A stretch of 62,715 nt of DNA from a virus. The notes below the pieces were generated by a model that ran no database searches, had not been told where the DNA came from, and saw nothing but the letters and a program-made list of their open reading frames with translations. Location: IMG/VR virus record IMGVR_UViG_3300009146_000014, positions 1 to 62,715 of that record. One strand, given 5' to 3'. The translations under genes and the position numbers were made by a program. Of the stretch, positions 5,014 to 61,431 are shown piece by piece (position 1 is the stretch's first letter; each line of letters begins with the position of its first letter).

Positions 5014-5355
5014 TCAGAGGCGCGCAAGATCGGCCGGGCGCAGTAGCGGACAGTCGCCAAATTCTCGGATGTTGGCGCGCATGCCTTCCGCCGAGACGAT
5101 GCCGAAATCAAAGTTCGGATGGGCCGACGCTGGCGGGGTGGGGTTGGCCGCGAGCCAAGCGTCAATGCGCGCCTTTATCCACGTGTCGGCTTGCGACCAT
5201 GCGTCGGCCTCGGGCTCGTCCGTGAATGGGCCGACGAACACGCAATCATAGTGGCCCAAAACCATAACGTATGCGGAGGCGGCGTCGGTGCCGTCCGGCT
5301 CCGCGCGCTCGGCGGGGCGCTTGGGGCGCCAATCCTTTGGGTTGGGGGTCGTCAT
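5014..5355 (-). CDS. Hypothetical protein, 113 aa
   Basis: A 113-aa protein, basic and proline-rich at the start, with a core (AYVMVLGHYDCVFVGPFTDEPEADAW) that looks like a compact alpha-beta or SPOR-like unit. AACCGGAGCAA lies upstream of the ATG. The central motif DCVFVGPFTDEPEAD is reminiscent of small phage proteins of unknown function. It is co-transcribed with the zinc protein and 57-aa gene upstream. Confidence 0.6.
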   Translation of the reverse strand: MTTPNPKDWRPKRPAERAEPDGTDAASAYVMVLGHYDCVFVGPFTDEPEADAWSQADTWIKARIDAWLAANPTPPASAHPNFDFGIVSAEGMRANIREFGDCPLLRPADLARL

Positions 5356-5370
5356 GTGAGGTTGCTCCGG

Positions 5371-5544
5371 TTAGTGGATGGGTTCGGCGCGGAAGTCGCA
5401 AAGCGCATCGATCATGTCGAAGCGCACGGCCAACGCTTGGGCGCGAGCGAGGCCGCTTGCCTCATCACGGCACCAAGTGAAGCAAAAGAAACGCTCGCCG
5501 GTATCAACGAGGGTGGCGACGATGTGGAAGCGGGGGGTCGGCAT
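5371..5544 (-). CDS. Hypothetical protein, 57 aa
   Basis: A 57-aa protein starting MPTPRFHIVATLVDTGERFF. It has a beta-beta-alpha pattern with CFTWCRDEASGLARAQALA, giving two cysteines separated by three residues, and a helix. CCGGAGCCTGAAA before the ATG is nearly identical to the ribosome sites of neighbouring genes, which decides the start at 5544. It follows a perfect intercistronic hairpin at 5565-5588. No family recognised. Confidence 0.5.
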   Translation of the reverse strand: MPTPRFHIVATLVDTGERFFCFTWCRDEASGLARAQALAVRFDMIDALCDFRAEPIH

Positions 5545-5564
5545 TTTCAGGCTCCGGGGGTTGG

Positions 5565-5588
5565 GGCCGCTCCCGAGTGGGAGCGGCC
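5565..5588 (-). other. Intercistronic perfect hairpin
   Basis: GGCCGCTCCC-GAGT-GGGAGCGGCC is a 10-bp perfect stem with a 4-nt loop, between two minus-strand genes of the same unit. It has no T-run, so it is more likely an mRNA stability, processing or attenuation structure than a terminator. Similar hairpins occur at 7138-7163, 47133-47169, 47629-47662 and 47710-47745. Confidence 0.65.
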
Positions 5589-5596
5589 GGTTCGGT

Positions 5597-5815
5597 TTAG
5601 AAGTCGCTGGCAAAGATGCGCTTGAGCTTGAAATGGTTGTATCCGTGGTTCGTCTTGATCTGAGCTTTCGTTTGCTGGCCGGTGCCTTTGCACGAGTAGC
5701 AGGGGCCGACGTGGGACATCTTGCCGTTGACGCATGCGCCCCATTTATATTCGCCAGTGCCTTTGCACTTGACGCACTTGCCGGGCTTCGCGTTGGGTTG
5801 GCTCAAGTCGTACAT
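5597..5815 (-). CDS. DnaJ-like zinc-finger protein, 72 aa
   Basis: A 72-aa protein with two CxxCxGTG modules, CVKCKGTGEY (residues ~14-23) and CYSCKGTGQQ (~38-47), separated by a strand containing a further cysteine (GACVNG). This is the classic pattern of the DnaJ/HSP40 cysteine-rich domain without the J domain. Such stand-alone zinc modules may act as adaptors or recruit host chaperones. It is the first gene behind the promoter at 5844. CCGGAGCC sits upstream of the ATG at 5815. Confidence 0.75.
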   Translation of the reverse strand: MYDLSQPNAKPGKCVKCKGTGEYKWGACVNGKMSHVGPCYSCKGTGQQTKAQIKTNHGYNHFKLKRIFASDF

Positions 5816-5843
5816 TTTCGGCTCCGGGTTGGTTCGTTTGTGA

Positions 5844-5892
5844 TGGCCTATATGTAGGCCACTCGATTGGGGCTGGCAAGAGGGGCTTATCA
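5844..5892 (-). promoter_or_regulatory. Early promoter/operator element P2
   Basis: Same 49-bp arrangement as at 4741: palindrome TGGCCTACATATAGGCCA (minus-strand reading), -35 TTGCCA 17 bases upstream, and the dyad TGATAAG-N5-CTTGCCA. The -10-like hexamer lies inside the palindrome. It drives the genes 5815 down to 4797 and sits just downstream of the terminator at 5901-5926, so it insulates this unit from the next. Confidence 0.85.
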
Positions 5893-5900
5893 AAAAAAGC

Positions 5901-5926
5901 AAAAAAAAGAGCGGCCGAAGCCGCTC
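5901..5926 (-). terminator. Intrinsic terminator
   Basis: On the minus strand, GAGCGGC-TTCG-GCCGCTC is followed directly by eight Ts: a 7-bp GC stem with a stable UUCG tetraloop. It lies immediately downstream of the gene ending at 5940 and upstream of promoter P2, closing that one-gene unit. Confidence 0.9.
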
Positions 5927-5939
5927 CCGATTTGTGCCG

Positions 5940-6248
5940 TTATGAAACGCCGGTCCAAGAGAAAGGCTTGTTGTCGTCCCGATAGATGTTGCCGCGCGCA
6001 AAATTCTTGGCGGGTGCGCGCCACGTTGCGGCCTTCAGGATGTCGCCGTTCGTCTTGTCCACAAAACCCCAAACGCTACGCTGGCCATCCGTGCCGCGCA
6101 TGCCGTGGGCGGCTACGATTTTCATATAGCGGTTGCCGCGCTCGATCGTGAGCACCGTGCCATAGTCGCCGGCATGCTGCACTCCCGAGATATGCGCTTG
6201 GACCTTGGCGACGAAAGCGGCGAGGGTGGTGTTGAAGTCGGGGGTCAT
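5940..6248 (-). CDS. Hypothetical protein, 102 aa
   Basis: A 102-aa protein starting MTPDFNTTLAAFVAKVQAHISG. The central part (TVLTIERGNRYMKIVAAH) is a beta-rich segment followed by SVWGFVDKTNGDILKAATWRAPAKNFARGNIYRDD, a pattern found in phage proteins of unknown function related to DUF7717-like single-strand or nucleoid-binding candidates; I do not assign a function. It has its own promoter (6289) and terminator (5901-5926), so it is a monocistronic early gene that may be highly expressed. Confidence 0.65.
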   Translation of the reverse strand: MTPDFNTTLAAFVAKVQAHISGVQHAGDYGTVLTIERGNRYMKIVAAHGMRGTDGQRSVWGFVDKTNGDILKAATWRAPAKNFARGNIYRDDNKPFSWTGVS

Positions 6249-6288
6249 TTTCAGGCTCCGGGGTTAGGGGCGCCACGTCGGCGCCCGA

Positions 6289-6337
6289 TGGCCTATATGT
6301 AGGCCAGACCCGGAAGCGTGGCAAGAGGGTCTTATCA
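6289..6337 (-). promoter_or_regulatory. Early promoter/operator element P3
   Basis: Third copy of the 49-bp element. The palindrome at 6289-6306 and the TGGCAAG-N5-CTTATCA dyad (plus-strand reading) at 6319-6337 are 30 bases apart, exactly as in the other copies. It lies 41 bases upstream of the ATG at 6248. Confidence 0.85.
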
Positions 6338-6349
6338 AAATAAGTTCGT

Positions 6350-6388
6350 CCCAAAATGAGAAAGGCGGCTCGGTTGCCCGGCCGCCTT
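6350..6388 (-). terminator. Probable terminator after the pilin-containing unit
   Basis: AAGGCGGC (6362-6369) pairs with GCCGCCTT (6381-6388). In the minus-strand reading the stem is followed by a T-rich stretch (TTTCTCATTTT). It lies between the stop of the gene at 6411 and promoter P3. The U-tract is interrupted, so it may be weaker than the terminator at 5901-5926. Confidence 0.55.
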
Positions 6389-6410
6389 GCCCGTTCGCGT
6401 TGTGCGCCGG

Positions 6411-6632
6411 CTATAGCATGCGCTGGCGCTGGTACGCCTTGACGTAGTGGCGGACCTCGCGCCCGTTGCGCCGCTTGTAGGTGTCAAGCCTGAGAGCGGC
6501 GGCAACTTGCGGGATACTGATAGACGGCCAGCCTAGTGCCTTGCGCGCTTCGCTGGCCGACACGCCTTTGTCGCGCGTGATGAGCTTGAGAAATACGCGC
6601 CGCTTGGGCGTGGTAGGCTTGCGGGGTGTCAT
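6411..6632 (-). CDS. Stand-alone WPSxSIPQ/GREVR domain protein, 73 aa
   Basis: A 73-aa basic protein. Its core (SEARKALGWPSISIPQVAAALRL followed by NGREVRHYV, read in two blocks) is clearly related to the C-terminal third of the amidoligase at 8138-9196, which has FNWPSVSIPQKAAACKLD and GREVRYYV. The shared module looks like a winged-helix-type unit. The protein may be a regulatory or substrate-binding partner derived from, or exchanged with, the amidoligase. CGGAGCAAAG precedes the ATG. It is the last gene of the unit starting at 8092. Confidence 0.7.
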   Translation of the reverse strand: MTPRKPTTPKRRVFLKLITRDKGVSASEARKALGWPSISIPQVAAALRLDTYKRRNGREVRHYVKAYQRQRML

Positions 6633-6662
6633 GGTGCTTTGCTCCGTTTGTTGTGCGCCGGC

Positions 6663-6827
6663 CTACTGGATAGCGTTGCCGACGTTGTTGAACGTGTCGC
6701 CGATGGCAGTGCCGAGCGCGCGGGCTCCGCCGATGATGGCAACCGCAATGAGGGCGGCGATTAAGCCATACTCGATGGCGGTGGCGCCGGACTCGTCTTG
6801 CAGGAAACGCTTGAGAGTGTTCGTCAT
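6663..6827 (-). CDS. Flp/Fap-type pilin
   Basis: A 54-aa protein with the hallmark of tad-system Flp pilins: a short basic leader (MTNTLKRFLQDESG), the prepilin-peptidase junction G/A, then the invariant Glu-Tyr pair (ATAIEYG) and a hydrophobic helix LIAALIAVAIIGGARALG. Host Flp pilins are 50-65 aa, so the length is typical. The first ATG of a longer frame was rejected because it extends past the leader; TTGCTCCG-type ribosome spacing supports 6827. Phages rarely encode pilins. It could enter or poison host tad pili and block superinfection by pilus-dependent phages (inference). Confidence 0.85.
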   Translation of the reverse strand: MTNTLKRFLQDESGATAIEYGLIAALIAVAIIGGARALGTAIGDTFNNVGNAIQ

Positions 6828-6871
6828 GGTCTTTGCTCCGTTGGTTGCAGTCACAGTCACGTCAAAAAAAA

Positions 6872-7114
6872 TCAATCGTCGTCAGAAGGCTTCGAGTCGT
6901 CGTCTCCCATGCCGCACGCGAGCGCGTCCATGGCGAGCTTGATGTACTTGGGAGTCGGGTGACGACCTTGCTCCCAACCGTCCAAGGCTTGCCGGGAGCA
7001 ACCGAGCGCGTCCGCCGCTTGCCGGGTTGAATAGCCCATAAGCGTGCGCCACTCGGCGACGGGGTTGGAGTTTTTCTTGGTGCGCTTGCGGGTAGCGGTG
7101 GCGGTGGTGCCCAT
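6872..7114 (-). CDS. XRE-type helix-turn-helix regulator, 80 aa
   Basis: An 80-aa protein with a basic N-terminus and a helix-turn-helix core at about residues 25-60 (MGYSTRQAADALGCSRQALDGWEQGR), typical of XRE/Cro proteins, with the recognition helix at SRQALDGWEQG. The acidic tail ends DDDSKPSDDD. Candidate regulator of the palindromic operators that head the five minus-strand units; the other candidates are the HTH proteins at 42341 and 48975. AAAGGGAC precedes the ATG. Confidence 0.75.
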   Translation of the reverse strand: MGTTATATRKRTKKNSNPVAEWRTLMGYSTRQAADALGCSRQALDGWEQGRHPTPKYIKLAMDALACGMGDDDSKPSDDD

Positions 7115-7137
7115 GGCACGAGTCCCTTTCGAGTGGG

Positions 7138-7163
7138 GGGATGCTCCCGAGCGGGAGCATCCC
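7138..7163 (-). other. Intercistronic perfect hairpin
   Basis: GGGATGCTCCC-GAGC-GGGAGCATCCC is an 11-bp perfect stem between the stop at 7171 and the HTH gene start at 7114. There is no T-run. It shares the CTCCC-GAG(C/T)-GGGAG apex with the hairpin at 5565-5588, which suggests a common RNA element. Confidence 0.65.
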
Positions 7164-7170
7164 GGTTGAG

Positions 7171-7446
7171 TTAAGCGTTGCCGATCGCCGCGACGTTGGC
7201 GCCGGCCGGCAGCACGCCGGTTTCGTAGTAGGCGCGGACCGCCTCATAGCTTTCCGCGACTGCGAACCCGCCGCCGTCTTTGAAAGTCAGACGGGTGCCC
7301 GGCTTGCCTTCGTTGCGCGGGTTGAAGCACCGGATAGCATCGCGAGCGACGCTAACCGCAACCGTTTCCACGTCGGGGTCGCCTTCGTCCTCACGATACG
7401 AGGCTTGGCGGGTCAAGAGCTTGGTGAGGTTCAAGAGAGTCGTCAT
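7171..7446 (-). CDS. Hypothetical protein, 91 aa
   Basis: A 91-aa protein starting MTTLLNLTKLLTRQASYREDEGDPDVETVAV. It is helical, then has a short strand-turn-strand unit (GTRLTFKDGGGFAVAESYEAVRAYYE) resembling the flagellar FlbD-like or GGGFAV turn found in many small phage proteins. CGAAGGAAAC before the ATG fixes the start at 7446. It is the second gene of the unit headed by promoter P4. Function unknown. Confidence 0.65.
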   Translation of the reverse strand: MTTLLNLTKLLTRQASYREDEGDPDVETVAVSVARDAIRCFNPRNEGKPGTRLTFKDGGGFAVAESYEAVRAYYETGVLPAGANVAAIGNA

Positions 7447-7478
7447 GGTCGTGTTTCCTTCGTTTAGCCTTGGTGGGT

Positions 7479-8072
7479 TCAATCGCCGTACACGCACAAG
7501 GCATTGCGTACACGGCTCACGACATCGAGCGACAGTTGAGTGCAGCACGTGGCGGGCTTCTGCGGTGCTTTGCCTTTGAGGCTAGGCCGCTCTGCCAAAG
7601 GTGGGCGCCCGTTTCGTGCGTACCTCTGCCGCTCGATGTGAGACGGATTCTTTTCGTCATGCGAGGCCTCAACCGCGTCGCGGAGCGGCTTTTGCTTGAG
7701 GCCAAAATTCCGATAGCCTTCGCGGATGGTCGCGAGGTAGCCCATGGACGGGGGCATGATGCCTTCCGAGTTCATGACGTAAAACATAATCGTGTCATGG
7801 CCTCTGATCGGCTCGGTTAGCTGCACTTCCACCTTGCGATACATGCCGCCGGCCACGCCTTCGTAACGATCAAGCGAGGCCTCGCACTCGTCCGTGATGA
7901 GCCACAAGCCGCCCGGCACGCGCGAGCCTTTCGAGTAGACAACATCGGCGACGCCACGAAAGACGAGCTTGGCGTCATCGAGGAAGAAGGCGCCAACGGC
8001 CACGGCTTTGGGGCAGCGCCATTTCATCTGGCGTTTGTGGAGGTTCGAGCCGTATGCGAAATAAAGCTTCAT
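7479..8072 (-). CDS. Gamma-glutamylcyclotransferase-like (GGCT/AIG2) enzyme
   Basis: A 197-aa protein whose start, YFAYGSNLHKRQM, is the signature nucleotide-like loop of the gamma-glutamylamine cyclotransferase fold. The expected later elements are present: GGLWLITDECEASLDRYEG, where the Glu at about 80 is the likely acid/base, and YRKVEV. These enzymes cleave gamma-glutamyl amide bonds with release of 5-oxoproline. The C-terminal ~60 residues are basic and outside the domain. Promoter P4 lies 20 bases upstream. Its neighbour at 8138 is an amidoligase, the enzyme that makes such bonds, so the pair probably works on one metabolite or peptide tag. Confidence 0.85.
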   Translation of the reverse strand: MKLYFAYGSNLHKRQMKWRCPKAVAVGAFFLDDAKLVFRGVADVVYSKGSRVPGGLWLITDECEASLDRYEGVAGGMYRKVEVQLTEPIRGHDTIMFYVMNSEGIMPPSMGYLATIREGYRNFGLKQKPLRDAVEASHDEKNPSHIERQRYARNGRPPLAERPSLKGKAPQKPATCCTQLSLDVVSRVRNALCVYGD

Positions 8073-8091
8073 TTTCTTTGCTCCGGGTTGA

Positions 8092-8140
8092 TGGCCTACA
8101 TATAGGCCATCGGGTTGAGGTTGGCAAGAGCCGCTTATCA
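8092..8140 (-). promoter_or_regulatory. Early promoter/operator element P4
   Basis: Fourth 49-bp element. In the minus strand: TGATAAG-CGGCT-CTTGCCA, then TATATG 17 bases after TTGCCA, inside TGGCCTATATGTAGGCCA. Its first three bases are the stop codon of the amidoligase gene. It drives 8072 to 6411 (GGCT-like enzyme, 91-aa protein, HTH, Flp pilin, 73-aa protein). Confidence 0.85.
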
Positions 8141-9196
8141 GAAAGCGTGCGTCTCGGGTTGGATGGCCGGGCGAGTCGGGGCCGGGTTGAGCAGCGTTGT
8201 ACGGGTGCGCATATAGTCGGCCTCATCAGGGGTTGAGCCAATGAGGTTGCAGAGGCCGGCGAGCGAGATATCCAAGGCCATGCTGGTCTGCATCGCGGCG
8301 CGGCGCACGTAGTAGCGAACCTCGCGGCCGGTACGCTGCGAATAGATATCCAGCTTGCAAGCCGCCGCCTTCTGCGGAATGGAAACGCTGGGCCAGTTGA
8401 AGGCGCGGCAAACCTCAGTGCGCGAGACGCCATTGGCGCTCAAGAGCATTTCGCCAATCTGCCAAGCCTTGCTGCCGCGCTTGGCGCGATTGACGATGGC
8501 CGGGGCAGTGTTGGCGATCGGCAGTTCGCGCGAGGCCGCGATGGCGATACGGAGGCAGGTAAGAATCCAGGTGCGCGCCTTCGTGTAATTGATCGTGCCG
8601 CTATGCTGGCGAAACTCGACGGTCTTGTAGGTGTTGTGAGCGACGATGTTGAGCTTGTGATAGCGGGCTTTGCTGGCGCCGGTTGCGCGCTTGATCGCAT
8701 CGGCGAGGTCGGCAACCGAGTAGGCCGCCTCGATGCTGGCCGCGCGGACGGAGGCGAGCGTGCGGCAGTAGGCGTTGACGGAGCCGCGACGGTTGGTCGG
8801 CATCATCTTGTCAATGATGGGCTCATAGGACTGATAAAGCCGGACCAACTTTTTGAAATAGCCGATCTGTTGCGGGCCGACGCCAACGTGCACATGCAGG
8901 CCGCACTTGTCCGAAACGGTGCAGCGGAATTGCGCGAGCATGCGGCAAACCGTGGCGACTTGAGCAAGCCCGGCATCGCCGCGCAGCACGGGCGAGACAA
9001 GCTCGATGCCGCGCGAATAGTCGCCGAGCGATCCGTCTGTTACGATGCGCCAATGCGAGGTAACGACGTGGCCGTAGGCGGCAACCGAGCAAGCGACGCC
9101 GGCATCAGAGATTGCGCGGGCGAGCGCATGACGGTCGCCACCTACGGGCAAGTAGCACTCAAACTCGACGCCGAAGGTGAAAACGTCAGGGGTCAT
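8138..9196 (-). CDS. Amidoligase-family enzyme with C-terminal GREVR module
   Basis: A 352-aa protein starting MTPDVFTFGVEFECYLP. FGVEFE is the conserved metal-binding strand of the glutamine-synthetase-like amidoligase family. Further family motifs are SDGSL-like ivTDGSLGDYSRGIELVSP (~50-68), CGLHVHVG (~98-105) and YKTVEFRQHSGT (~205-216). These enzymes form ATP-dependent amide bonds. After about residue 250 a WPSVSIPQ/GREVRYYV module follows that also occurs alone at 6411-6632. Promoter P5 lies 35 bases upstream. The GGCT-like partner follows immediately. Target unknown; modified peptide or small molecule. Confidence 0.85.
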   Translation of the reverse strand: MTPDVFTFGVEFECYLPVGGDRHALARAISDAGVACSVAAYGHVVTSHWRIVTDGSLGDYSRGIELVSPVLRGDAGLAQVATVCRMLAQFRCTVSDKCGLHVHVGVGPQQIGYFKKLVRLYQSYEPIIDKMMPTNRRGSVNAYCRTLASVRAASIEAAYSVADLADAIKRATGASKARYHKLNIVAHNTYKTVEFRQHSGTINYTKARTWILTCLRIAIAASRELPIANTAPAIVNRAKRGSKAWQIGEMLLSANGVSRTEVCRAFNWPSVSIPQKAAACKLDIYSQRTGREVRYYVRRAAMQTSMALDISLAGLCNLIGSTPDEADYMRTRTTLLNPAPTRPAIQPETHAF

Positions 9197-9230
9197 TTTT
9201 CTTGGTCCGGTGTTAGGCGTTTCGCGTTGG

Positions 9231-9279
9231 TGGTCTACATATAGGCCACGCGAACGGACATGGCAAGCCCGACTTATCA
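9231..9279 (-). promoter_or_regulatory. Early promoter/operator element P5
   Basis: Fifth copy, with one substitution in the palindrome (TGGTCTACATATAGGCCA on the plus strand). Spacing to the TGGCAAG-N5-CTTATCA dyad is again 30 bases. It sits in the divergent gap between the amidoligase gene and the rightward late region that begins at 9299, so repression here could also affect the late operon start. Confidence 0.8.
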
Positions 9280-9298
9280 AAAAAAATGAGGTATCCAA

Positions 9299-9961
9299 AT
9301 GGCCAGGAACAGGAAGCGAACCGCCAAGCCCGGCAAGGCGGCAGCCGACGAATCGCCGTTTGATCATCCGCGCGGGCCTCTGATCGGGGCGACGATGGCC
9401 GGTGTTGTGCTGATGCGCGACCCGGAGCGCGTGCGGCAGCTTGCGCGGGCCGGGTGGTTCCAATCGGAAGGCAGCCGCGCGGGGCACAAGGGCGCGGCGT
9501 ATCGATTGCTCGATATCGTGCACGGGTACATCCGTTTTCGCGATGATGAGGGCCGGCGCGGCACAAAGACGGCAGCCGCCTCGCGGATTGCGGAGGCTCG
9601 CTCGCGCGAGGTTGAGTTGCGCAACGCCTATCGCGAGGGGCACCTTATCGAATTGGAGGAGGCGCTTGAGACGGTTGAGGCTATTATGGGCGTGCTCCGA
9701 TTGAATTTGTCGGGGCTGCCGGCGCGCGTGACGCGCGACTTGCAACTGAGGCGGACAATAGAGACGGCCATAAATGACATCCTCGACTCGCTTGCGGATA
9801 TTGCCGCCGAGAAGTCAAAAGCTTTGGGAAAAGTTCGAGCTTCTAGCGCGCCCATCGCGGCCGATGACACCGGACAGGTGGGCGGCAGAGAATCGAACGC
9901 ATCCGCAAACGTCCGCAGTGCCAGGGCCACGCGACCCGCACTTGACCCCGTACATAATTGA
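9299..9961 (+). CDS. Terminase small subunit, probable
   Basis: A 220-aa basic protein. Its position directly before and overlapping the large subunit, together with a central run of helices (SRIAEARSREVELRNAYREGHLIELEEA), fits a DNA-recognition small terminase of the lambda Nu1 or DUF1441-like type, which characteristically has the AR..E.E....G.LI stretch. Role: bind the packaging site and load the large subunit. The ATG at 9299 is kept because an upstream ATG at 9286 is in another frame. The last ~60 residues are encoded in a region shared with the large-subunit start. Confidence 0.8.
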   Translation: MARNRKRTAKPGKAAADESPFDHPRGPLIGATMAGVVLMRDPERVRQLARAGWFQSEGSRAGHKGAAYRLLDIVHGYIRFRDDEGRRGTKTAAASRIAEARSREVELRNAYREGHLIELEEALETVEAIMGVLRLNLSGLPARVTRDLQLRRTIETAINDILDSLADIAAEKSKALGKVRASSAPIAADDTGQVGGRESNASANVRSARATRPALDPVHN

Positions 9962-11801
9962 ACCGGAGCGCGCGGTTGCATCGGGCGGCACGCACAAACG
10001 AATCGTGCTCGTCATCGCCGCGCAAACCGGCAAGACGGAATTTATGTTGGATGTGGCCGGGCAGCGGCTAGACCAGAAGCCGGCGCCGATTCTCTATGTC
10101 GGGCCGAACAAGCAATTCCTCGTTGAGCAATTCGAGCCGCGATTGATGGCGTTGCTCGATGGTGCGCCGAGCCTCGCGGCGAAAGTCGCGCGGGGCAAGC
10201 GCATGACCAAGACGCGCAAGGTTGTGGCCGGCGTGCCGTTTCGTCTCGCGCACTCCGGTTCGTCGGCGGCACTGAAGTCGGACCCGGCGGCGCTCGCGTT
10301 GATTGATGAGTTCGATGAAATGAAATCGAACGTCAACATGCAGGGCGGGCCGCTCGGGTTGGTCGAGCGGCGCGGAGACACCTATGCCGAGTTCGTTGCC
10401 GTGGTAACATCGACGCCAAAGAAAGGGCGAGTCGCGGCGGTACGGGATGAGCGGTCGGGCCTCATATTTTGGGACGTTGCCGTGGTCGAGGATATCGAAA
10501 GCCCGATTTGGCAACTGTGGCAACAGGGCACGCGGCATCATTGGTGCTGGCCGTGTCCGCAGTGCGGCGAGTATTTCGTGCCGCGATTCAACTTGCTGCA
10601 ATATCCGCTCAATGCGACGCCGCTAGAAGCGGCGCGCGAATGCTTCCTGAAATGTCCCAACTGCGGGGGCGTGATCACGAACGAGCATAAGGAAGCGATG
10701 AATGAGCGCGGCCGGTATGTCGCGCCGGGGCAATCAATCACGAAAGACGGAATCATTCACGGTGCTCCGCATGAGCGGATGACGCTCTCTTTTTGGGTGT
10801 CCGGTCTCGCCTCGCCGTTCGTCACGTTCGGCGAGCGCGTGGCGATGTACGTGGAAGCGTTGCAGTCTGGCGATGATGCGATGGTGCAACAGGCCGTCAA
10901 CGCGGGGTTCGGCGAGCTACACTCGCCGGGCGGCGGCGAGGTTCCCGAATGGGCGGAGATAAAGCAGAAGTCGTTGCGCGCGAGCTATCGGCGCAACGAT
11001 GTTCCGGAGGATGCGCTTTATCTGGTGATGACGGCGGACGTGCAACGGCAGTCGATACCGTGGGTGATTCGGGCGTGGGGAGCGCGCGCCACGTCGTGGC
11101 TCGTGAATTACGGCTACTTGCGCGGCGACACATCAGAGGAAGAAATATGGGAAGCGCTCGGCGATTTGATGGTGACGCCGATTCAAGGCGTGCCTATCAA
11201 GTTGGGATTCATCGACTCCGGGTTCCGACCGGGCAAAACGGACACGCTGCCGCTCAATCGCGTGTATGAGTTTTGCCGGCGCTTCTCTCGGCGGGTGCGG
11301 CCGACAAAAGGTTCGTCGGCGCCGATGCGCACGCCGCTCATCTTTTCAAAGATAGAGGTCAACCGTAAGGACGGGCGCGCGGCGAAGTTCGGACTCGACT
11401 TGGTTCGCCTCGATACCGATCATTGGAAAAGTTGGGTGCACGAGCGGCTCCGTTGGCCAGAGGACAAGATAGGCGGGTGGCACGTGTTCCGAGATATCGA
11501 TGACGACTATTGTCATCAACTCGTGTCGGAAGCGCGCTTGAAGCAACCGACCGGGCGCATCGAATGGGTGCAGCGCTCGCGGCATAATCACTTTTTCGAT
11601 TGCGAGGCGATGCAAGCCGCCGCCGGCTACCTCTTGAACGTGCAGAGGATTCCGTTGCAAAACCGTTCTCAATCGCCTAAAGAGGAAATTGGCAGGCAGC
11701 CGGCAACACCTTCTGAGGACCAATTTACTCCGTCGCAAGCGCAGCATCAGGCGCGTATTCCAAGACGGCGGGTCATCCGGTCGAGCTACCTCGGAAGCTA
11801 A
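9774..11801 (+). CDS. Terminase large subunit, GpA type
   Basis: A 675-aa protein of the lambda GpA family, the ATP-driven packaging motor and nuclease. It has a Walker-A-like AAQTGKTE (82-89), a Walker B LALIDEFDEM (174-183), a zinc-binding insert with CPQCGEYF and CPNCGG, and the nuclease-domain start TADVQRQSIPWVIRAWG at about 420. The conserved family start corresponds to MTPDRWAAENR, so translation may instead begin at Met31 (9864). With the 9774 start it overlaps the small subunit by 188 bases. GpA enzymes usually cut at cos sites. Confidence 0.93.
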   Translation: MTSSTRLRILPPRSQKLWEKFELLARPSRPMTPDRWAAENRTHPQTSAVPGPRDPHLTPYIIEPERAVASGGTHKRIVLVIAAQTGKTEFMLDVAGQRLDQKPAPILYVGPNKQFLVEQFEPRLMALLDGAPSLAAKVARGKRMTKTRKVVAGVPFRLAHSGSSAALKSDPAALALIDEFDEMKSNVNMQGGPLGLVERRGDTYAEFVAVVTSTPKKGRVAAVRDERSGLIFWDVAVVEDIESPIWQLWQQGTRHHWCWPCPQCGEYFVPRFNLLQYPLNATPLEAARECFLKCPNCGGVITNEHKEAMNERGRYVAPGQSITKDGIIHGAPHERMTLSFWVSGLASPFVTFGERVAMYVEALQSGDDAMVQQAVNAGFGELHSPGGGEVPEWAEIKQKSLRASYRRNDVPEDALYLVMTADVQRQSIPWVIRAWGARATSWLVNYGYLRGDTSEEEIWEALGDLMVTPIQGVPIKLGFIDSGFRPGKTDTLPLNRVYEFCRRFSRRVRPTKGSSAPMRTPLIFSKIEVNRKDGRAAKFGLDLVRLDTDHWKSWVHERLRWPEDKIGGWHVFRDIDDDYCHQLVSEARLKQPTGRIEWVQRSRHNHFFDCEAMQAAAGYLLNVQRIPLQNRSQSPKEEIGRQPATPSEDQFTPSQAQHQARIPRRRVIRSSYLGS

Positions 11802-12132: not shown

Positions 12133-13734
12133 GTGGGGGCTTTGGCGAAAATCGCCGAGCGTATCGAGGGCGCTGCCGAGCGGTTGGGACAGTATGTCTC
12201 GCGGTCGAGCAAGGAAGCGCGCAACGAGGATTTTGACGGCTCGCGGCAGCGGCGCCGGCTCAAGAGTTGGCAGCCGACGCGCCTAACCGCAAATGTGATC
12301 ATGGCGAGCAGCGGAGAGTTGCTCCGCGCACGCTGCCGCGACGCTCTGAGAAACAACGCGCACGCGGTGGCCGCCTCCGAAAGCTTCGCGGCAAATCTGA
12401 TCGGCACCGGAATCAAACCGTCCTCTCTCATGTCGGATAATCCCGACTTGCGCGAGGCGCTCATGCAGTTGTGGATGGATTGGACGGACGAGTGCGACGC
12501 GGACGGCATCGCCGATTTCTACGGCATGCAGAGCATAGTCGCGCGTGCGTTGTTCGAAGCCGGCGAGTGTTTCATCCGCTTTCGCGCGAGGCGGATGGAG
12601 GACGGCTATTTGGTGCCGCTGCAAATCCAATTGCTCGAATCGGAAATGTGCCCGTACGGCATGAACCAGAAAGCCGCCAACGGCAACTTTGTCATGAACG
12701 GCATTGAGTTGGATTTCATCGGCCAACGCGCGGCCTACTACTTTTATCCGATTCATCCGGGCGATGCGCCGATAGAGGTCGGCGTGACGGGCATGCAACC
12801 CGTGAGAGTTCCGGCGTCGGAAGTGCTGCACATTTTCAAGTGCACGCGGCCGGGGCAAATGCGTGGCGTGCCGTTGGTGACGCCGGCACTAACGCGGCTG
12901 TATTTCCTCGATCAATACGACGACGCCGAATTGGAGCGCAAACGCATCGCCGCGATGTTCGCCGGCTTCATTCAGACGCCATCGCCAGAGGATGTGATTC
13001 CAATCGACGGCATCGACACGAGTGCCGAGCAATTGAATGTCGGACTTTCCGGACTCGAGCCGGGCACGATGCAAACGCTTTTGCCGGGCGAGGAAATCAC
13101 GTTCTCAGAACCGGCCGACGTGGGCGGGAGCTATGAGGCGTATCAATATCGCCAGCAACTCGCCATCTTTAGCGCGCTCGGCATCCCGTACTCGATTTGC
13201 ACATCCGACTTGCGGCGGGCCAACTACAGTTCGTTGCGCGGCTCGATTGTCGAGTACCGACGCAAGCTTGAGCAATTCCAGCACAATATCATCGTCTTTC
13301 AGATGTGCGCGCCGATCTGGCGCCGTTGGTTCGATACGGCGGTGCTCGCGGAGGCGGTGCCCATCGAGGTCGCGCCATACCTCGCGCGTAAGCAGCAATA
13401 CACGCGGACGCGGTGGATTCCGCAGCGGAACGATTGGGTGGACCCGTTGAAAGATCGGCAGGCCGAAAAGCTCGCGGTCGATTCCGGGTTCAAGTCGCGC
13501 AGCGATGTTGTTGAGTCGGAAGGCAACGACCCGGAAGAAAACGACAAGCGAATCGCGGCGGACAGAGAGCGCGAGAAAAAGTTGGACCTCGTGTTCCCGG
13601 TGGTCTACGCGGCAGCGACGCAACCGCTTTCGCCGAGCGAGGAAGCCGAGCGGCAGCAGGCGGCGGAGGATGCAGCACAAGAGGCCGCCGACGCGGCGGC
13701 AGACGATGACGAGAAAGACGACGCGGCAGCATAG
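12133..13734 (+). CDS. Portal protein, lambda family
   Basis: A 533-aa protein (GTG start two bases after the upstream stop) with the lambda gpB-type pattern: RARCRDALRNNAHAVAASESFAANLIGTG near the N-terminus, LFEAGECFIRFR, HIFKCTRPGQMRGVPLVTPAL, and SSLRGSIVEYRRKLEQFQH. It forms the dodecameric portal through which DNA enters the capsid. The C-terminal 60 residues are Ala/Asp/Glu-rich and disordered. It precedes the protease, as in lambda-type head modules. Confidence 0.95.
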   Translation: MGALAKIAERIEGAAERLGQYVSRSSKEARNEDFDGSRQRRRLKSWQPTRLTANVIMASSGELLRARCRDALRNNAHAVAASESFAANLIGTGIKPSSLMSDNPDLREALMQLWMDWTDECDADGIADFYGMQSIVARALFEAGECFIRFRARRMEDGYLVPLQIQLLESEMCPYGMNQKAANGNFVMNGIELDFIGQRAAYYFYPIHPGDAPIEVGVTGMQPVRVPASEVLHIFKCTRPGQMRGVPLVTPALTRLYFLDQYDDAELERKRIAAMFAGFIQTPSPEDVIPIDGIDTSAEQLNVGLSGLEPGTMQTLLPGEEITFSEPADVGGSYEAYQYRQQLAIFSALGIPYSICTSDLRRANYSSLRGSIVEYRRKLEQFQHNIIVFQMCAPIWRRWFDTAVLAEAVPIEVAPYLARKQQYTRTRWIPQRNDWVDPLKDRQAEKLAVDSGFKSRSDVVESEGNDPEENDKRIAADREREKKLDLVFPVVYAAATQPLSPSEEAERQQAAEDAAQEAADAAADDDEKDDAAA

Positions 13735-14787: not shown

Positions 14788-15165
14788 ATGAGCCAGTATC
14801 CAGTTCTGAATGAGACCGCTCATCCGGCAGAGTTCATTCTGTCGGAAGCAAGCGGACAGCGTTCGCGCGACAACGCTCTGTTTCAAGACCCGAGCGTGGT
14901 CAAGGTTGGGCAGCCGTGCAAAAAGACGGCGGAGGCAACGACCGACTCGATGGCGAAATACGTCGTGGCCGCAGCGGGCGCCGATTGCCAAGCTCTGGCG
15001 ATTTACGGCGGCGCCTCGTCATCCGGCAATGATCTGAAAATCGCGGTGCTCACTCGCGATTGCGAGGTCAACGGTCGGCTGATCGATTGGGGCGGTTTGA
15101 GTGCCGCCGAGCAAGTGGCCGGCGTCGCGGCCTTGGCGGCGAAAGGGATCATCGTTCGCATCTGA
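14788..15165 (+). CDS. Head decoration protein, gpD-like
   Basis: A 125-aa protein starting MSQYPVLNETAHPAEFILSE, the typical opening of lambda gpD-type capsid-stabilising proteins, followed by the beta-rich core and the final AAKGIIVR strand. AAAGGAG lies 12 bases before the ATG at 14788. It binds the outside of the expanded capsid at three-fold positions. Its place between protease and major capsid protein is canonical. Confidence 0.92.
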   Translation: MSQYPVLNETAHPAEFILSEASGQRSRDNALFQDPSVVKVGQPCKKTAEATTDSMAKYVVAAAGADCQALAIYGGASSSGNDLKIAVLTRDCEVNGRLIDWGGLSAAEQVAGVAALAAKGIIVRI

Positions 15166-15208
15166 CCCGGAGAGCGGCGGGCGAAAATCTAAGAGAGGAA
15201 AAACGACC

Positions 15209-16222
15209 ATGCTTGACATCTTTCGCGGCGATGCTTTCGGGGTGATTCCTCTGACGCTCGCCATCAATAACTTGAAGTTCGTTCCCGGCTACGTGTCCGG
15301 GCGCGGGCTGTTCAATGAGAGTGCCATTGCAACGACGGTGGTCTCAATCGAGGAAAAGAACAACATCCTCACACTCGTTGCGCCGACGCCGCGCGGCGGG
15401 CCGGGTCATACGCTGCCGAAAACCCGGCGCTCTATGCGCATGCTCGGTGTGCCGCATTTCGAAATCAATGATGCGGTGATGGCCGAGGAAGTGCAGGGCG
15501 TGCGTCCGTTCGGTGAGGAGACCGGCACCGAGGCCGTGATGACCAAAGTCGCGGAGCGCATGCAGACGGCCGGGCAGTCGCTTGAATACACGCAAGAATA
15601 TTCGCGCGTGGGTGCGATCAAGGGAGTCGTCTCATACGCCGATGGCACCGTGCTCAATCTGTTCAACGAGTACGGCATCGCCGTGCCGCCCAACATCGAC
15701 ATGAATTTGGATTCGGCGGTGGCGGACGGTTCGTTGCGGCTGAAGTGCGCCGGCATCATCCGCACGATGGGCACGAACTTGGATGGGCAGAGCTTCACGG
15801 GAGTCGAGGCGCTCTGCGGTGACGCATTCTTTGACGCGCTGATCAAGCATCCGGAAGTTCGTCAAACCTATCTCAACTATCAGGCCGCCGCCGAGTTGCG
15901 GCAGGGCTACGTTGGGGCCGGACAGGTTTGGGGTTCGTTCATGTTCGGCGACATCCTCTGGACGAATTATCGCGGGTATGTCGGCGGCAACCCGATGATT
16001 GAGTCCAACATGGCCTATCTCTATCCGACCGGCGTGCCGCAACTCTTTTCGACGGTCTACGCGCCGGCCGATTACATCGAGACGGTCAACACGATGGGGA
16101 AGCCGAAGTACGTCAAGCAATACACGATGCCCAATGACAAGGGCATTCACATGGATACGCAGACGAACCAACTCAATTGGTGCACGAGGCCGCTTGCACT
16201 GATGCGAGCAGTCTTGACGTAA
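15209..16222 (+). CDS. Major capsid protein, lambda gpE family
   Basis: A 337-aa protein starting MLDIFRGDAFGVIPLT. Family marks include the TLPKTRRS/ FEINDAVMAEEVQGVRPFG region, the G-rich elements of the HK97-type fold, and the C-terminal VYAPADYIETVNTMGKPKYVKQ and RPLALMRA. AGAGAGGAAAA precedes the ATG at 15209, and the length matches lambda gpE (341 aa). It builds the icosahedral shell. Confidence 0.95.
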   Translation: MLDIFRGDAFGVIPLTLAINNLKFVPGYVSGRGLFNESAIATTVVSIEEKNNILTLVAPTPRGGPGHTLPKTRRSMRMLGVPHFEINDAVMAEEVQGVRPFGEETGTEAVMTKVAERMQTAGQSLEYTQEYSRVGAIKGVVSYADGTVLNLFNEYGIAVPPNIDMNLDSAVADGSLRLKCAGIIRTMGTNLDGQSFTGVEALCGDAFFDALIKHPEVRQTYLNYQAAAELRQGYVGAGQVWGSFMFGDILWTNYRGYVGGNPMIESNMAYLYPTGVPQLFSTVYAPADYIETVNTMGKPKYVKQYTMPNDKGIHMDTQTNQLNWCTRPLALMRAVLT

Positions 16223-43113: not shown

Positions 43114-44889
43114 CTCTCGCTCGGGGGTTTCGGTGCTCTCGCTTGGAACGGCTCGCTCTGCGTCTTTGGGTGTCTCGATGTAGATGGCACGGTTCGCTCT
43201 TTTCTTACGGTGCTCTCGACGGTCAAGGCTCGCTCAAAGGATTCGGTGCTCTCGATGTGGGTGGCTCACTCAAAGGATTCGGTGCTCTCGGGATCGATGG
43301 TGGTTTTACTCGATGGCAAATGGCTCGCTCGCTGTATTCGGTGCTCTCATCGGCGAGTGGCTCGCTCGGCGACGATGGTTCTCTCGACGCGAATTGGCTC
43401 GCTCGGTGATTATGGCGCTCTCAACGGACCCGGCTCGCTCGGCGACTACGGTGCTCTCGGTGGCGCGGGCTCGCTCGTCGACGACGGTACTCTCTACGGT
43501 TCGGGCTCGCTCGCTGCTCTCGGTTCTCTCACTTTCACATGGCTCGCTCGCTGCTTTCGGTGCTCTCGCTTGTGCTGGCTCGCTTTGATGGTTCGGATTC
43601 CTCAGTGGTTCGGGCTCGCTCGTCGTATTCGGTGCTCTCGTGGGCAACATGGCTCGCTCTCAGGCAACGGTGCTCTCAGCATTATCGGCTCGCTCACGTA
43701 TTTCGGTTTCTCTCAACGGGGCTGGCTCGCTCATGCGTGACGGGTATTCTCAACGGTGCTGGCTCGCTCTGTGGGTACGGCGCTCTCGGGCAGTATGGCT
43801 CGCGCTCTTGCATTACGGCGAATGTGCTCAAAGGCTTTGGCATCGCTCAAGGGTTGCGGCGCTCTCGGCATAGACGGCTCGCTCAAGTCCAAGTGGTTCT
43901 CTCGGCATAGACGGCTCGCTCAAGGGGTTCCGGTGCTCTCTCTCTGTGTGGCTCGCTCGCAGGGCTGGGTTCTCTCTTGCTTGTTTGGCTCGCTCATTTG
44001 GTTCGGGTGCGCTCGCTTCTAACGGCTCGCTCAACGCGGAATGGTGCTCTCGTCGTGCAAGGCTCGCTCTTAGGTGCTGGTGCTCTCGACGCAGACGGCT
44101 CGCTCTCCCTTTTCGGTTCTCTCAATTGCAAAGGCTCGCTTGCAGCAGACGGTTCTCTCGTGCGCTACGGCTCGCTCGTCGGTTTCGGTGCTCTCTGCGC
44201 TTAGGGCGCGCTCAACGAAATTGGTTCTCTCGTGGGGCTCGGCTCGCTCTGTGTTCTGTGGTTCGCTCTCGGGATATGGCTCGCTCTCGCTATCCGGTAC
44301 TCTCATGGCAAAGGCGGCTCGCTCGTTGGGCTCGGTGCTCTCTTTGGCCTCTGGCTCGCTCGATGATATTGATGCGACTCGCTTGAGACGGCTCGCTCGT
44401 TGTTTTCGGCGCTCTCTCGCTGATGGGCTCGCTCGTTGTCTCCGGGTTCTCTCTATGAGTACGGCGCGCTCACGTCCTACGGTGCTCTCTCGGATTACAG
44501 GCTCGCTCGTTTGCTCCGGGCTCTCTCGACTGATTCGGCGCGCTCGCGCTTATCGGTGCTCTTGCATCATGTGGCTCGCTCAGGAGAGAACGGTTCTCTC
44601 ATCTCTCTAGGCTCGCTCATGGGTTTCGGGTGTCTCGTGTGTCATGGCTCGCTCATTTGGCTCGGTGCTCTCTCGCTGATTGTGGCTCGCTCGCATTTCT
44701 GGTGCTTGCTCTATTTCGACGGCTCGCTCATTTGGCTCGGTTCTCTCTCGCTGTACGGCGCGCTCGCGAAGCATGGTGCTCTCGGTCCGATTGGCTCGTT
44801 CAACTCCGATGGTGCTCTCGGGGATTACGACTCGCTCAAAGCTTAGGCTCGCTCGCGAAGCATGGTGCTCTCTGGTCTTACGGCTTAAT
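43114..44889 (-). repeat. TIGR-type array: about 48 units of 36 nt, dual 9-nt spacers
   Basis: Plus-strand reading: GGCTCGCTC, 9 variable bases, GGTGCTCTC, 9 variable bases, repeated about 48 times in 1.77 kb. The first repeat is nearly invariant (a few GGCGCGCTC, GGCTCACTC, GGCTCGCTT). The second varies at positions 3-4 (GGTTCTCTC, GGCGCTCTC, GGTACTCTC). Spacers are mostly 9 nt, sometimes 10 or 11, and nearly all different. The length changes break every reading frame on both strands, so it is not a protein repeat. The last degenerate repeat lies in the 3' end of the Nop-domain gene. This is the layout of tandem interspaced guide RNA (TIGR) arrays, whose 36-nt tigRNAs carry two spacers. Transcription with the tas gene (minus strand) is inferred. 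Confidence 0.88.
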
Positions 44890-49849: not shown

Positions 49850-49891
49850 GGCCGCGACCCCCGTCGAAGGGAGTCGCGGCCTCTTTTTTTT
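49850..49891 (+). terminator. Strong intrinsic terminator
   Basis: GGCCGCGAC (49850-49858) pairs with GTCGCGGCC (49873-49881), followed by TC and eight Ts. It ends the two-gene rightward unit and meets the end of the leftward reductase gene, whose stop codon overlaps the T-run. Confidence 0.92.
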
Positions 49892-51602
49892 ACGCGGCGC
49901 TCACAGCGGCGCATCCGCCTTCGTCGCAATCGATCAAAGGGGTTCCCGAGTTATCGTCGGTTTTTTGCAAGAGCGCGCCGCGCTTGCCTCCGACTTGGAA
50001 CGTCGCGCAAGATTTGCATCCGCGTTCGAAGGCGTCGAAGTAGAGCGCTTGGAAGTCTCGCCACGCCATATCACTCGGGACGTTGGCTGTCTTAGAAACA
50101 GCCGAGTCAGTGTGCTTTTGAGCGCAGGCCAATACAGAAATATGCTCTTGAGCAGAAATTTCTGAAGCCTCGCGCGGAGATACGCCAAGCACTGCGAACC
50201 CGTAGTCTTGGACATCATAGGTCGTTGGTCCCGATGGCATTTGCACGACGCGCTTGCCCGACACTGCAAACACGGGCTCGATGCCGCTACTGATGTTGTC
50301 GTGCACGAACGAAATCGTGCCGGTCGGCGCAATGCTTATCAGATGCGAGTTGCGGACGCCATGTTCGGCGATGGCCGCTTGCACGTCGGCGCGTAGCGTG
50401 CGGATGAACGGTTGTGAGTGATACGCTTGCGTGATGGCCGGGGCCGCGCCTTTCTCTTTCGCGAGCATGGCCGATGCGTGGTAGGCCGCATTCTTGAGAA
50501 CGCCGAGCGTTTCATCGAGCAACTCAATAAAGCCTTCCGTGCCGTACGGGTGGCCGCACGCTTCAAGCGCGTTCGCGGTGCCCATGACGCCGAGACCCAT
50601 CCGGCGAGTCGCAATCGCTTGCTGCCGTTGCTCGGGCAGCGGGTAGGACGCAACATCGGTCACGTTGTCCATGCCGCGCACGACGCCGGGCACATCGTCG
50701 GCAAGCATGTCGAGGTCGAGCCGCCATTTCTTGCCGGGTCCGGCGGGCTGCAAATACTTGGTGAGGTTGAACGAACCGAGCAAGCACGCGCCGAACGGAG
50801 GAAGCGGTTGCTCGCTACATGGGTTCGTGGCGGCAATCGTCTCGCAATAGTTGAGGTTGTTCCACTCGTTGACTCGATCGATGAAGATCACGCCGGGCTC
50901 TGCCCAATCCCATGCGCTCCGCATGATTTGCTCCCATAGAGCGGCGGCATCAATCTCTCGATAAGGCTTGCCTTCGAACCGCAGTGTAAAGGGTCGGCCG
51001 TGCTTGACCGCGTGCATAAACTCGTCGGTGATGGCGATCGACAGATTGAACGTGTTGAGCCGGTCGGAATTTTGCTTGGCGTGTATAAATTCCTCGATGT
51101 CCGGATGATCCACGCGCAAGACGCCCATCATCGCGCCTCGCCGTTCGCCAGACGATGAAATCGTGTCGGCCATCGCGTGATAAACATTCATGTAAGAGCA
51201 CGGGCCAGACGCACGCGAGTCGAGCGAGCGAACCTTGTCATTGCGCGGTCGGATGGTGGAAAAGTCGTAGCCGATGCCGCCGCCACGCCGAAGAGTCTCG
51301 GCGGCTTGCGCGAGGCGGTCCATGATTGAGCCGGGGCCATTGAGCGAGTCTTCGATGGGGCCGGACACGAAACAGTTATAGGGAGTGGTTCGCTTGGTGG
51401 TGCCGAGACCGGCGAGGATGCGGCCGGCGGGCGAGAATCGGCCGTCGAGCATGATGGAACGAAAGGCTCGATAGTGCTTGTCGTCATCGGCGAGCATCGC
51501 GGCGACGCGATTGCAGACATCGCGCTTTGTCTCGTTGCGTTGCGCATACTTGAATTGGAAAACGGCGGCGGCTGCCGGAGTCAGTGGTCCGTGCTTGTCC
51601 AT
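49890..51602 (-). CDS. nrdJ: Adenosylcobalamin-dependent (class II) ribonucleotide reductase
   Basis: A 570-aa enzyme. Marks: RFSPAGRILAGLGT, YNCFVSGPIEDS (Cys77, redox partner), RRGGGIGYDFS, SGERRGAMMGVL, the radical loop ATNPCSEQPLPP (Cys262, Glu264), and ISIAPTGTISFVHDNISSGIEP. The C-terminus ends CDEGGC, the thiol shuttle. It makes deoxyribonucleotides without oxygen using host B12. No dATP-binding cone is visible at the N-terminus, so feedback control seems reduced, useful for a phage. Own promoter in the 51603-51703 gap. Confidence 0.95.
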   Translation of the reverse strand: MDKHGPLTPAAAAVFQFKYAQRNETKRDVCNRVAAMLADDDKHYRAFRSIMLDGRFSPAGRILAGLGTTKRTTPYNCFVSGPIEDSLNGPGSIMDRLAQAAETLRRGGGIGYDFSTIRPRNDKVRSLDSRASGPCSYMNVYHAMADTISSSGERRGAMMGVLRVDHPDIEEFIHAKQNSDRLNTFNLSIAITDEFMHAVKHGRPFTLRFEGKPYREIDAAALWEQIMRSAWDWAEPGVIFIDRVNEWNNLNYCETIAATNPCSEQPLPPFGACLLGSFNLTKYLQPAGPGKKWRLDLDMLADDVPGVVRGMDNVTDVASYPLPEQRQQAIATRRMGLGVMGTANALEACGHPYGTEGFIELLDETLGVLKNAAYHASAMLAKEKGAAPAITQAYHSQPFIRTLRADVQAAIAEHGVRNSHLISIAPTGTISFVHDNISSGIEPVFAVSGKRVVQMPSGPTTYDVQDYGFAVLGVSPREASEISAQEHISVLACAQKHTDSAVSKTANVPSDMAWRDFQALYFDAFERGCKSCATFQVGGKRGALLQKTDDNSGTPLIDCDEGGCAAVSAA

Positions 51603-55172: not shown

Positions 55173-55367
55173 ATGTTTTACACCGAGCATATAAAGTTCG
55201 CGCCATCGCGTGCATGGGTCGTGCTCGGGCCGAAGCGAAAGATTCTCGGGCTGCATCTTGAGAAGGATGCAGCGGAGCATCAGTGCACGGCGATTCTTGT
55301 CGGCGACCCCGATGCCGACGTGACATTTACGAAATGTGTCGTTATGCCGAACTTCGCAATCAAGTAG
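55173..55367 (+). CDS. Hypothetical protein, 64 aa
   Basis: A 64-aa protein starting MFYTEHIKFAPSRAWVVLGPKRK, a strand-strand-helix-strand pattern with two cysteines. It lies in the tight gap between helicase and the SLOG gene (10 and 7 bases). No family recognised. Confidence 0.55.
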   Translation: MFYTEHIKFAPSRAWVVLGPKRKILGLHLEKDAAEHQCTAILVGDPDADVTFTKCVVMPNFAIK

Positions 55368-55374
55368 GTGCGCA

Positions 55375-55737
55375 ATGCGGGTGCTCGTCTGCGGTGGTCG
55401 GGGTTACAAGGATAGCGGCAAGATGCGCATGGCGCTCGATGCGCTCCGCAAGCGTTACGGCGTGCTTACAATCATCGAGGGCGGCGCGAAGGGCGCCGAT
55501 ATGCTGGCGCTACGTTGGTGTCTTGAGCAGGAGAGCGTGCGCCTCATTCATCATCCGGCCGATTGGGACAAGCACGGGCTCGCGGCCGGTCCGAAGCGGA
55601 ATCAGGAAATGATTGACGAGTATCATCCGGAGTTGGTGCTTGCGTTTCCGGGTGGCGTGGGCACGGCGGACATGGTTCGCCGTGCTCATGAGGCCAACAT
55701 CGCCGTGTTGTTGCCAGAGCACGTGGACAAATGGTGA
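55375..55737 (+). CDS. SLOG-domain (DUF2493/YspA-like) protein
   Basis: A 120-aa protein with MRVLVCGGRGYKD (Rossmann start), TIIEGGAKGADMLALRW, and VLAFPGGVGTADMVRRA, the three diagnostic glycine-rich motifs of the YspA/cpYpsA SLOG family. These bind nucleotide-derived ligands, perhaps NAD or ADP-ribose products. Together with the macro-like protein at 856 it may sense or remove defence signals; that is an inference. Confidence 0.88.
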   Translation: MRVLVCGGRGYKDSGKMRMALDALRKRYGVLTIIEGGAKGADMLALRWCLEQESVRLIHHPADWDKHGLAAGPKRNQEMIDEYHPELVLAFPGGVGTADMVRRAHEANIAVLLPEHVDKW

Positions 55738-61008: not shown

Positions 61009-61265
61009 TGCCCGAGAGGATGCGTGATCCGAGTCCCATGCACTATGCATCGGGCTATACGCTTGACCTCTACTGCGATCACATAAACCCGAGACATCCG
61101 TTCAACGCTTTTCCTCACACGTTTGTCGGGGAGACGTTCGCAGAATGCGCAAGGCAGGCAAGGGCAAAGGGTTGGGACGTACATCATCGAGACCGCACGG
61201 CAACTTGCCCGATCTGTTTGAGCGAGAGCCGGCAGGCACGCCTAAAGCGTGCGGGACGTGTGTAG
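61008..61265 (+). CDS. Hypothetical CxxC protein, 85 aa
   Basis: An 85-aa protein: LDLYCDHINPRHPFNAFPHTFVGETFAECARQARAKGW (in parts) and CPICLSE at the end. The GETFAECARQARAKGW helix is common in small phage zinc proteins that end in CPxC. TAATG overlap with the upstream stop. Confidence 0.65.
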   Translation: MPERMRDPSPMHYASGYTLDLYCDHINPRHPFNAFPHTFVGETFAECARQARAKGWDVHHRDRTATCPICLSESRQARLKRAGRV

Positions 61266-61423: not shown

Positions 61424-61431
61424 GGGCAAAG

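Follow-up and report, generated by a model that had tools for sequence, protein, structure and literature searches.

A Flp-type prepilin gene in a tailed phage genome and its possible role in altering host Tad pili

The flp gene and its predicted product

The DNA analyzed here, referred to as the window, is the entire 62,715-base IMG/VR virus record IMGVR_UViG_3300009146_000014. An intact open reading frame (ORF) lies on its minus strand at 6663-6827, with the ATG at 6827 and 54 codons followed by a stop. The ORF, flp, encodes a 54-residue Flp/Tad (type IVb) prepilin with a leader of residues 1-14 and a predicted mature pilin of residues 15-54. The protein matches the Pfam profile Flp_Fap (PF04964) across profile positions 1-46 of 46, scoring 70 bits (E 1.4e-19) against a curated cut-off of 32.2 bits, and it is the sole Flp_Fap match in the whole record. 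Searches against the PHROGs and NCBIfam profiles gave no match for it.

A short, basic leader, MTNTLKRFLQDESG, precedes a predicted Gly14|Ala15 cleavage site. Glu19-Tyr20, read directly from the sequence, occupy +5/+6 of the mature protein, and the remainder is a hydrophobic helix. AlphaFold, run with an 18-row alignment, models a single helix from residue 2 to 53 with a mean pLDDT of 86.9, rising to 93-98 in the blocks from residue 21 onward; the predicted mature protein is one helix without a globular domain. A phmmer search of the PDB matched the mature pilins of Caulobacter crescentus, 8u2b/8ucr (E 4.9e-6) and 8u1k (E 1.2e-5), and residues 15-53 align to residues 1-39 of mature PilA. Since window residue 15 aligns with mature PilA residue 1, the predicted cleavage falls at the position seen in the solved pilin. 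The profile match and the PilA alignment starting at Ala15 make the assignment as a Flp prepilin firm, and both the 54-residue prepilin and the complete layout described in a first-pass annotation of this DNA hold up.

Gly14, Glu19 and Tyr20 are unchanged in 18 of 18 aligned Flps, the window protein included. The stretch best conserved among the phage Flps, residues 14-26, covers the leader end and the helix. The invariance of the three residues would be equally expected of a pilin that simply makes normal pili.

The phage operon and its expression signals

The record is that of a tailed phage. The terminase large subunit (TerL; 9774-11801; phrog_15, E 5e-158), the portal (12133-13734; phrog_21) and the major head protein (15101-16222; phrog_29) are encoded within about 9 kb on the plus strand, this structural cassette being on the opposite strand to flp. 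RecT, ribonucleotide reductase, primase, helicase and endolysin genes are also present. Other features of the same phage are a ribonucleotide reductase large subunit at 49890-51602, a YspA/SLOG protein at 55336-55737, an FkbM methyltransferase at 61249-62082, and an array of roughly 1.7 kb at 43134-44866 in which GGTGCTCTC-like and GGCTCGCTC-like 9-mers alternate every 16-20 nt or so. The array holds 65 motif matches within 1.5 kb, its spacers vary in both sequence and length, so that a reading frame is not maintained; the compared loci, which cover other regions, contain nothing like it.

The flp gene belongs to a minus-strand run of small genes. The run starts with a gamma-glutamyl cyclotransferase (GGACT/AIG2) at 7479-8072 (PF06094, E 3.6e-10; phrog_2520), which opens the putative flp operon. 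A 91-residue protein follows at 7171-7446, recognized as an ORF and by comparison with related phages, in which it is conserved, and then an 80-residue HTH_3 DNA-binding protein at 6872-7114 (Pfam HTH_3, E 5.6e-8), also conserved in related phages. Downstream of flp the run ends with a 73-residue protein at 6411-6632 that resembles the C-terminal part of an amidoligase; its tblastn matches fall within amidoligase genes of related phages. An amidoligase_2 family enzyme is encoded in the neighboring unit on the same strand (8138-9205; PF12224, E 1.1e-30; phrog_2443), and the 6411-6632 ORF appears to be a stand-alone copy of its C-terminal domain.

The gaps flanking flp are 44 nt on the upstream (HTH) side and 30 nt downstream. 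A phage-type ribosome-binding stretch, CGGAGCAAAGACC, identified by sequence match at 6828-6841 on the minus strand, precedes the ATG. Its decamer CGGAGCAAAG is also found before the starts of four other phage genes, at 8072, 6632, 47605 and 48872.

A palindrome, GGCCTAYATRTAGGCC, occurs in six copies at ≤3 mismatches, whereas 0.23 are expected in shuffled sequence. One copy (8093-8108) lies operator-like over the -10 box of a putative minus-strand promoter, TTGCCA-N17-TATATG (8093-8127; consensus match only), upstream of the cyclotransferase-7171-HTH-flp-6411 run. The next promoter/palindrome copy, recognized by aligning the copies (6290-6324, minus strand), is downstream of orf6411 and bounds the putative transcription unit; the amidoligase gene has its own palindrome copy upstream, at 9232-9247. 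Four of the palindrome copies, at 9232, 8093, 6290 and 5845, overlap a minus-strand box TTGCCA-N17-TAYATR. A longer module, TTGATAAG ... TTGCCA-N13-GGCCTAYATRTAGGCC, is seen in five minus-strand copies at 4742, 5845, 6290, 8093 and 9232, the one at 4742 being near-perfect with one mismatch. These modules are likely a promoter/operator set of the phage. A stricter sigma-70 consensus scan of 5200-9800 returned 0 promoters, and the window palindromes were not found at ≤2 mismatches in the 20 relatives tested out of 80.

From this layout we infer that the cyclotransferase-7171-HTH-flp-6411 genes form one phage-controlled transcription unit apart from the late genes, and that flp would be expressed in an early-type manner. 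No flp-only unit was seen in the window; flp sits under the shared putative promoter at 8093-8127. A host flank or a misbinned contig is ruled out for the window, where flp lies between phage genes and has the phage ribosome-binding decamer. That the pilin is phage-encoded, as the first-pass annotation had it, is borne out by the TerL, portal and major head protein genes in the record and by the phage-type expression signals of flp. The surroundings are not those of a Tad locus: the record has one Flp and no A24 peptidase, and the scanned neighbors are phage genes or genes of no assigned function.

Accessory status and probable host origin

The phage was compared with 80 viral contigs carrying related terminases, several of which are short fragments. 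Many of these relatives also have, close to the terminase, the HTH, 7171, cyclotransferase, amidoligase and 6411 genes. A PF04964 match at E ≤ 0.1 was found in 0 of the 80, several being short fragments, which argues that flp is an accessory gene. The sequence comparison places flp among the phage "morons", genes found in one phage and absent from relatives that have the same neighbors.

At the DNA level, the window flp is 78% identical to a flp gene of a Hyphomicrobiaceae MAG, which has ORFs taken for cpa/tad genes downstream of it, and the similarity ends at the limits of the ORF. Because the likeness is confined to the ORF, a host-type gene appears to have been inserted into an older phage operon. 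TerL had a match at E ≤ 1e-150 in just 3 of 397 genomes of one order, with 52-55% identity. Bradyrhizobium is a common soil host group, and Tad clusters are reported in 95% of 1,505 Bradyrhizobium genomes (PMC12918737).

Dependence on host pilus machinery

The prepilin peptidase profile PF01478 had no match in any of 18 Flp-bearing viral records, the window included. Two sets of viral records, 20 and 9 in number and without the window, likewise gave no match to the T2SSE/CpaF ATPase. Queries with seven putative Cpa/Tad proteins detected Tad genes in the vicinity of flp at 59 of 80 host loci and at none of the 29 viral ones. Host genomes already carry Flp, with 2-7 matches in each of 10. As no peptidase was found in the phage, its pilin would depend on the host processing machinery. 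The first-pass annotation had the pilin processed by the host peptidase; its choice of the host as processor is backed by the 18 records without a prepilin peptidase, and cleavage itself stays a prediction.

Flp genes in other viruses

A first scan of viral contigs yielded 20 Flp-encoding loci and a second one 29, among them all of the first 20, each of which has one Flp match over the cut-off. Counts over the 29 loci retain likely host flanks and contig-end loci, plus L015, L016 and L019. Three groups of carriers have firm phage backgrounds and, together with the window phage (phrog_15), make at least four unrelated ones. Group B comprises ten contigs (L003, L004, L007-L014) that have many ORFs in common and a phrog_3717 terminase, typed on L003. 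In group C (L195, L196, L201) a phrog_38 terminase, typed on L195 and L196, the small terminase and the portal adjoin flp. The third is L021, where flp is between the DNA polymerase and primase/helicase genes and the record has an integrase. Four more loci, L017, L018, L020 and L203, have phage genes on the same locus and are probable further backgrounds. One group C locus, L195, has a tandem flp pair (7712-7900 and 8001-8165) beside the terminase genes.

Some loci were handled separately. Four IMG/VR contigs (L193, L194, L204, L205) probably have flp in host DNA flanking a provirus and were set aside as likely host flanks; their neighbors, judged by eye, resemble host outer-membrane and recombinase proteins. 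In L002, L005, L006, L010, L196, L199 and L201, flp is near a contig end, and these loci were treated with care.

In a tree of 102 Flps built on few columns, which leaves out the first copy of the tandem L195 pair, the viral sequences require 12 label changes, at least 4 of which are forced by well-supported branches. This points to several captures of flp by phages, not one.

A tblastn search of 50,697 GenBank phage records with the window Flp gave no match at E ≤ 0.01 or at E ≤ 10, and the L003 and L021 Flps gave none at E ≤ 10. The search is insensitive, because in a plasmid control true Flp genes of 66% identity scored just E about 0.01-0.1, and the negative is a weak one.

Glycine-rich and often acidic C-terminal tails were seen in the Flps of L004, L010, L017 and L020. 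Such Gly-rich tails occur in 4 of 21 viral vs 0 of 80 host Flps (Fisher p 0.0015), a post hoc comparison in which the host Flps had been picked for similarity to the window Flp, itself lacking such a tail. In the length of the tail overall, viral and host Flps are no different (p 0.14).

The group B cassette, selection and Sinorhizobium meliloti

Seven group B sequences show strong conservation over roughly 130 nt ahead of the ATG. After this come the variable ORF and a conserved stretch ending ACCGGTC...GACCGGTCTTTTCTTTT, a terminator-like hairpin. With its own conserved leader and the terminator-like hairpin, the group B gene looks like a promoter-flp-terminator cassette. No CtrA site was seen in the leader by eye.

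Over 21 pairs from 7 group B genes, the mean dN is 0.194 and the mean dS 0.976, a ratio of 0.20. This figure, which applies to group B and not to the window flp, comes from non-independent pairs with a dS close to 1. A dN/dS of about 0.2 suggests purifying selection on group B flp.

The entire group B cassette is present in an element of S. meliloti AK76 pSymB, with 76.5% identity, and this one plasmid record is the whole-cassette match. Against 397 genomes of one order, nearly all the listed matches of the cassette are confined to the pilin core; the two exceptions, G143 and G283, match the leader region alone (E 7e-4 and 9e-4). S. meliloti AK21 pSymB (L235) has a prophage-like stretch in which some blocks reach 94-96% identity with the AK76 element. 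The AK21 stretch keeps 62 bp at the terminator (8001-8062) and does not have the flp cassette, and no Flp match by motif was found within 16 kb. The presence of the cassette in AK76 and its absence from AK21 tie group B to S. meliloti and indicate that flp comes and goes.

Proposed role

We tentatively favor, at somewhat less than even confidence, the view that flp is a host-derived prepilin gene carried by the phage as an accessory moron, which alters the host Tad pili and mainly lowers infection by pilus-dependent rivals. In the infected or lysogenic cell, the host CpaA/TadV peptidase would cleave the leader at Gly14|Ala15. The phage pilin would then be assembled into the host Tad pili, or jammed in them, and fewer pilus-dependent phages would bind to pili mixed or blocked in this way. 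Keeping superinfecting rivals out would be the main gain, and a change in attachment would come along as a side effect.

The expected loss of binding follows from the role of Tad pili as phage receptors, on which adsorption is decided by a few surface residues. Phage phiCb5 is reported to contact PilA at Val29, Val30, Val32, Thr33, Asn43, Lys48, Thr51 and the C-terminus (PMC11067988). The PilA substitutions N43R and T51A affect these contacts, and a strain carrying both does not adsorb phiCb5 (PMC11067988), in agreement with the first-pass statement that Tad pili serve as phage receptors. At the seven phiCb5-contact positions the window Flp reads V, A, I, G, G, N and N, and its chain ends at residue 54; the comparison is illustrative, since the hosts differ. 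Superinfection exclusion by the window Flp is plausible on these grounds; retention of the accessory gene for lysogen adhesion can be another route. That the gene has some function is supported by its repeated uptake, by purifying selection and by the dedicated cassettes.

That second route, lysogenic conversion, is a possible but rather unlikely main explanation: an extra or variant pilin would change the adhesion of the lysogen, its biofilm or its attachment to plant surfaces, with no anti-phage role. A Flp in a Vibrio harveyi prophage is filed as an adhesion factor (PMC12482185), the group B cassette is within the AK76 pSymB element, and an integrase scores over the cut-off in three flp carriers (G020 = L021, G004 = L005, G005 = L006). 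However, neither the window record nor its two long relatives of high terminase identity, L102 and L104, yielded an integrase, and one more subunit would add little where a host has 2-7 Flp matches, as in the 10 genomes.

Less probable still, flp may be a passenger, a host gene captured by illegitimate recombination and under no selection in the window phage. Its absence from all 80 terminase relatives fits this, and the 78% DNA identity to the MAG flp (L022), confined to the ORF, is consistent with a single capture. But the gene has the phage ribosome-binding decamer and operon-like gaps of 44 and 30 nt, and its ORF is unbroken and lacks none of the key residues. The same type of gene has also been taken up repeatedly by other phages, one group having a dN/dS of about 0.2.

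A third explanation, which we regard as improbable, is that the pilin acts as a signal mimic, a membrane peptide that works on PleC and pushes the host from the swarmer to the replicating, less piliated state. In Caulobacter, the PilA helix is described as carrying a cell-cycle initiating sequence that acts on the kinase PleC (PMC13234629), an action proposed in PMC11067988 as well, and alphaproteobacterial phages are reported to tie genes to the host cell-cycle state through CtrA (PMC9437464). As a long shot, phages might have acquired the pilin time and again for signaling and not for pilus construction: the phage prepilin might flood the inner-membrane pilin pool, flip a PleC-type kinase and drive the swarmer into a replicating, pilus-shedding state. 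If so, a single 54-residue protein would make the host available for DNA replication and at the same time strip it of the receptor that rivals use. The conservation peak of the phage Flps at residues 14-26 accords with this, but pilus assembly needs the same residues, so that conservation does not discriminate, and PleC signaling by a pilin is described for Caulobacter. It is very improbable that the gene boosts or restores piliation so that the progeny find more receptors: Tad pili are receptors of alphaproteobacterial phages (PMC11067988; PMC9437464), but re-infection brings no direct gain to the infected cell.

If pilus alteration against rivals is the right reading, a phage that supplies a pilus subunit would represent a new exclusion route, in which the receptor is edited from inside and the motor is not blocked. 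Tad pili give alphaproteobacterial phages a way into the cell and, in addition, act in surface and cell-cycle sensing. The gene is tiny and recurs in unrelated phages, one group of which is tied to the culturable S. meliloti, which makes the idea testable.

Comparison with known systems

Tip, Aqs1 and PfsE are pilus-inhibitor proteins of Pseudomonas phages. Pilus-targeting exclusion by Pseudomonas phages is also reported for a PilB-inactivating protein, for Gp21 of vB_Pae_QDWS and for Pf4 (PMC11436027). As proposed for the window Flp, a phage gene changes the host pili in these systems and blocks rivals; they differ in that the Pseudomonas proteins described in PMC11436027 are not themselves pilins and act by blocking pilus motors, assembly or expression, whereas the window gene encodes a structural subunit.

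Phage Flp genes as such have already been tabulated in two prophage surveys, in whose available text no tested function is attached to them (PMC12482185, PMC12429752). The V. harveyi prophages phi345 and phiGAN1709 likewise combine a tailed-phage genome with a Flp family pilin (PMC12482185). Their host is of a different class, and the available text of that survey lists the Flp, on the basis of a database match, among putative virulence factors and offers neither a mechanism nor an exclusion hypothesis (PMC12482185). The other survey has a table row for a Flp in a phiLM21-like prophage of S. meliloti, which is alphaproteobacterial like group B and possibly akin to it (PMC12429752). The window phage differs from group B in terminase and operon context, which are unrelated. 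A functional study of a phage-encoded pilin was not found in the open-licence PMC literature.

A close structural likeness is to the Flp/Tad type IVb (IVc) pilins such as Caulobacter PilA (8u1k, 8u2b), which are of the same family, have a 14-residue leader and lack a globular domain. The leader of the C. crescentus pilin is its first 14 residues (PMC11067988), and both proteins are cleaved before ATAIEY, as predicted in the case of the window Flp. They differ in setting. Host pilin genes mostly have tad genes beside them (59 of 80 loci), whereas the window flp is in a phage operon where no tad genes were found.
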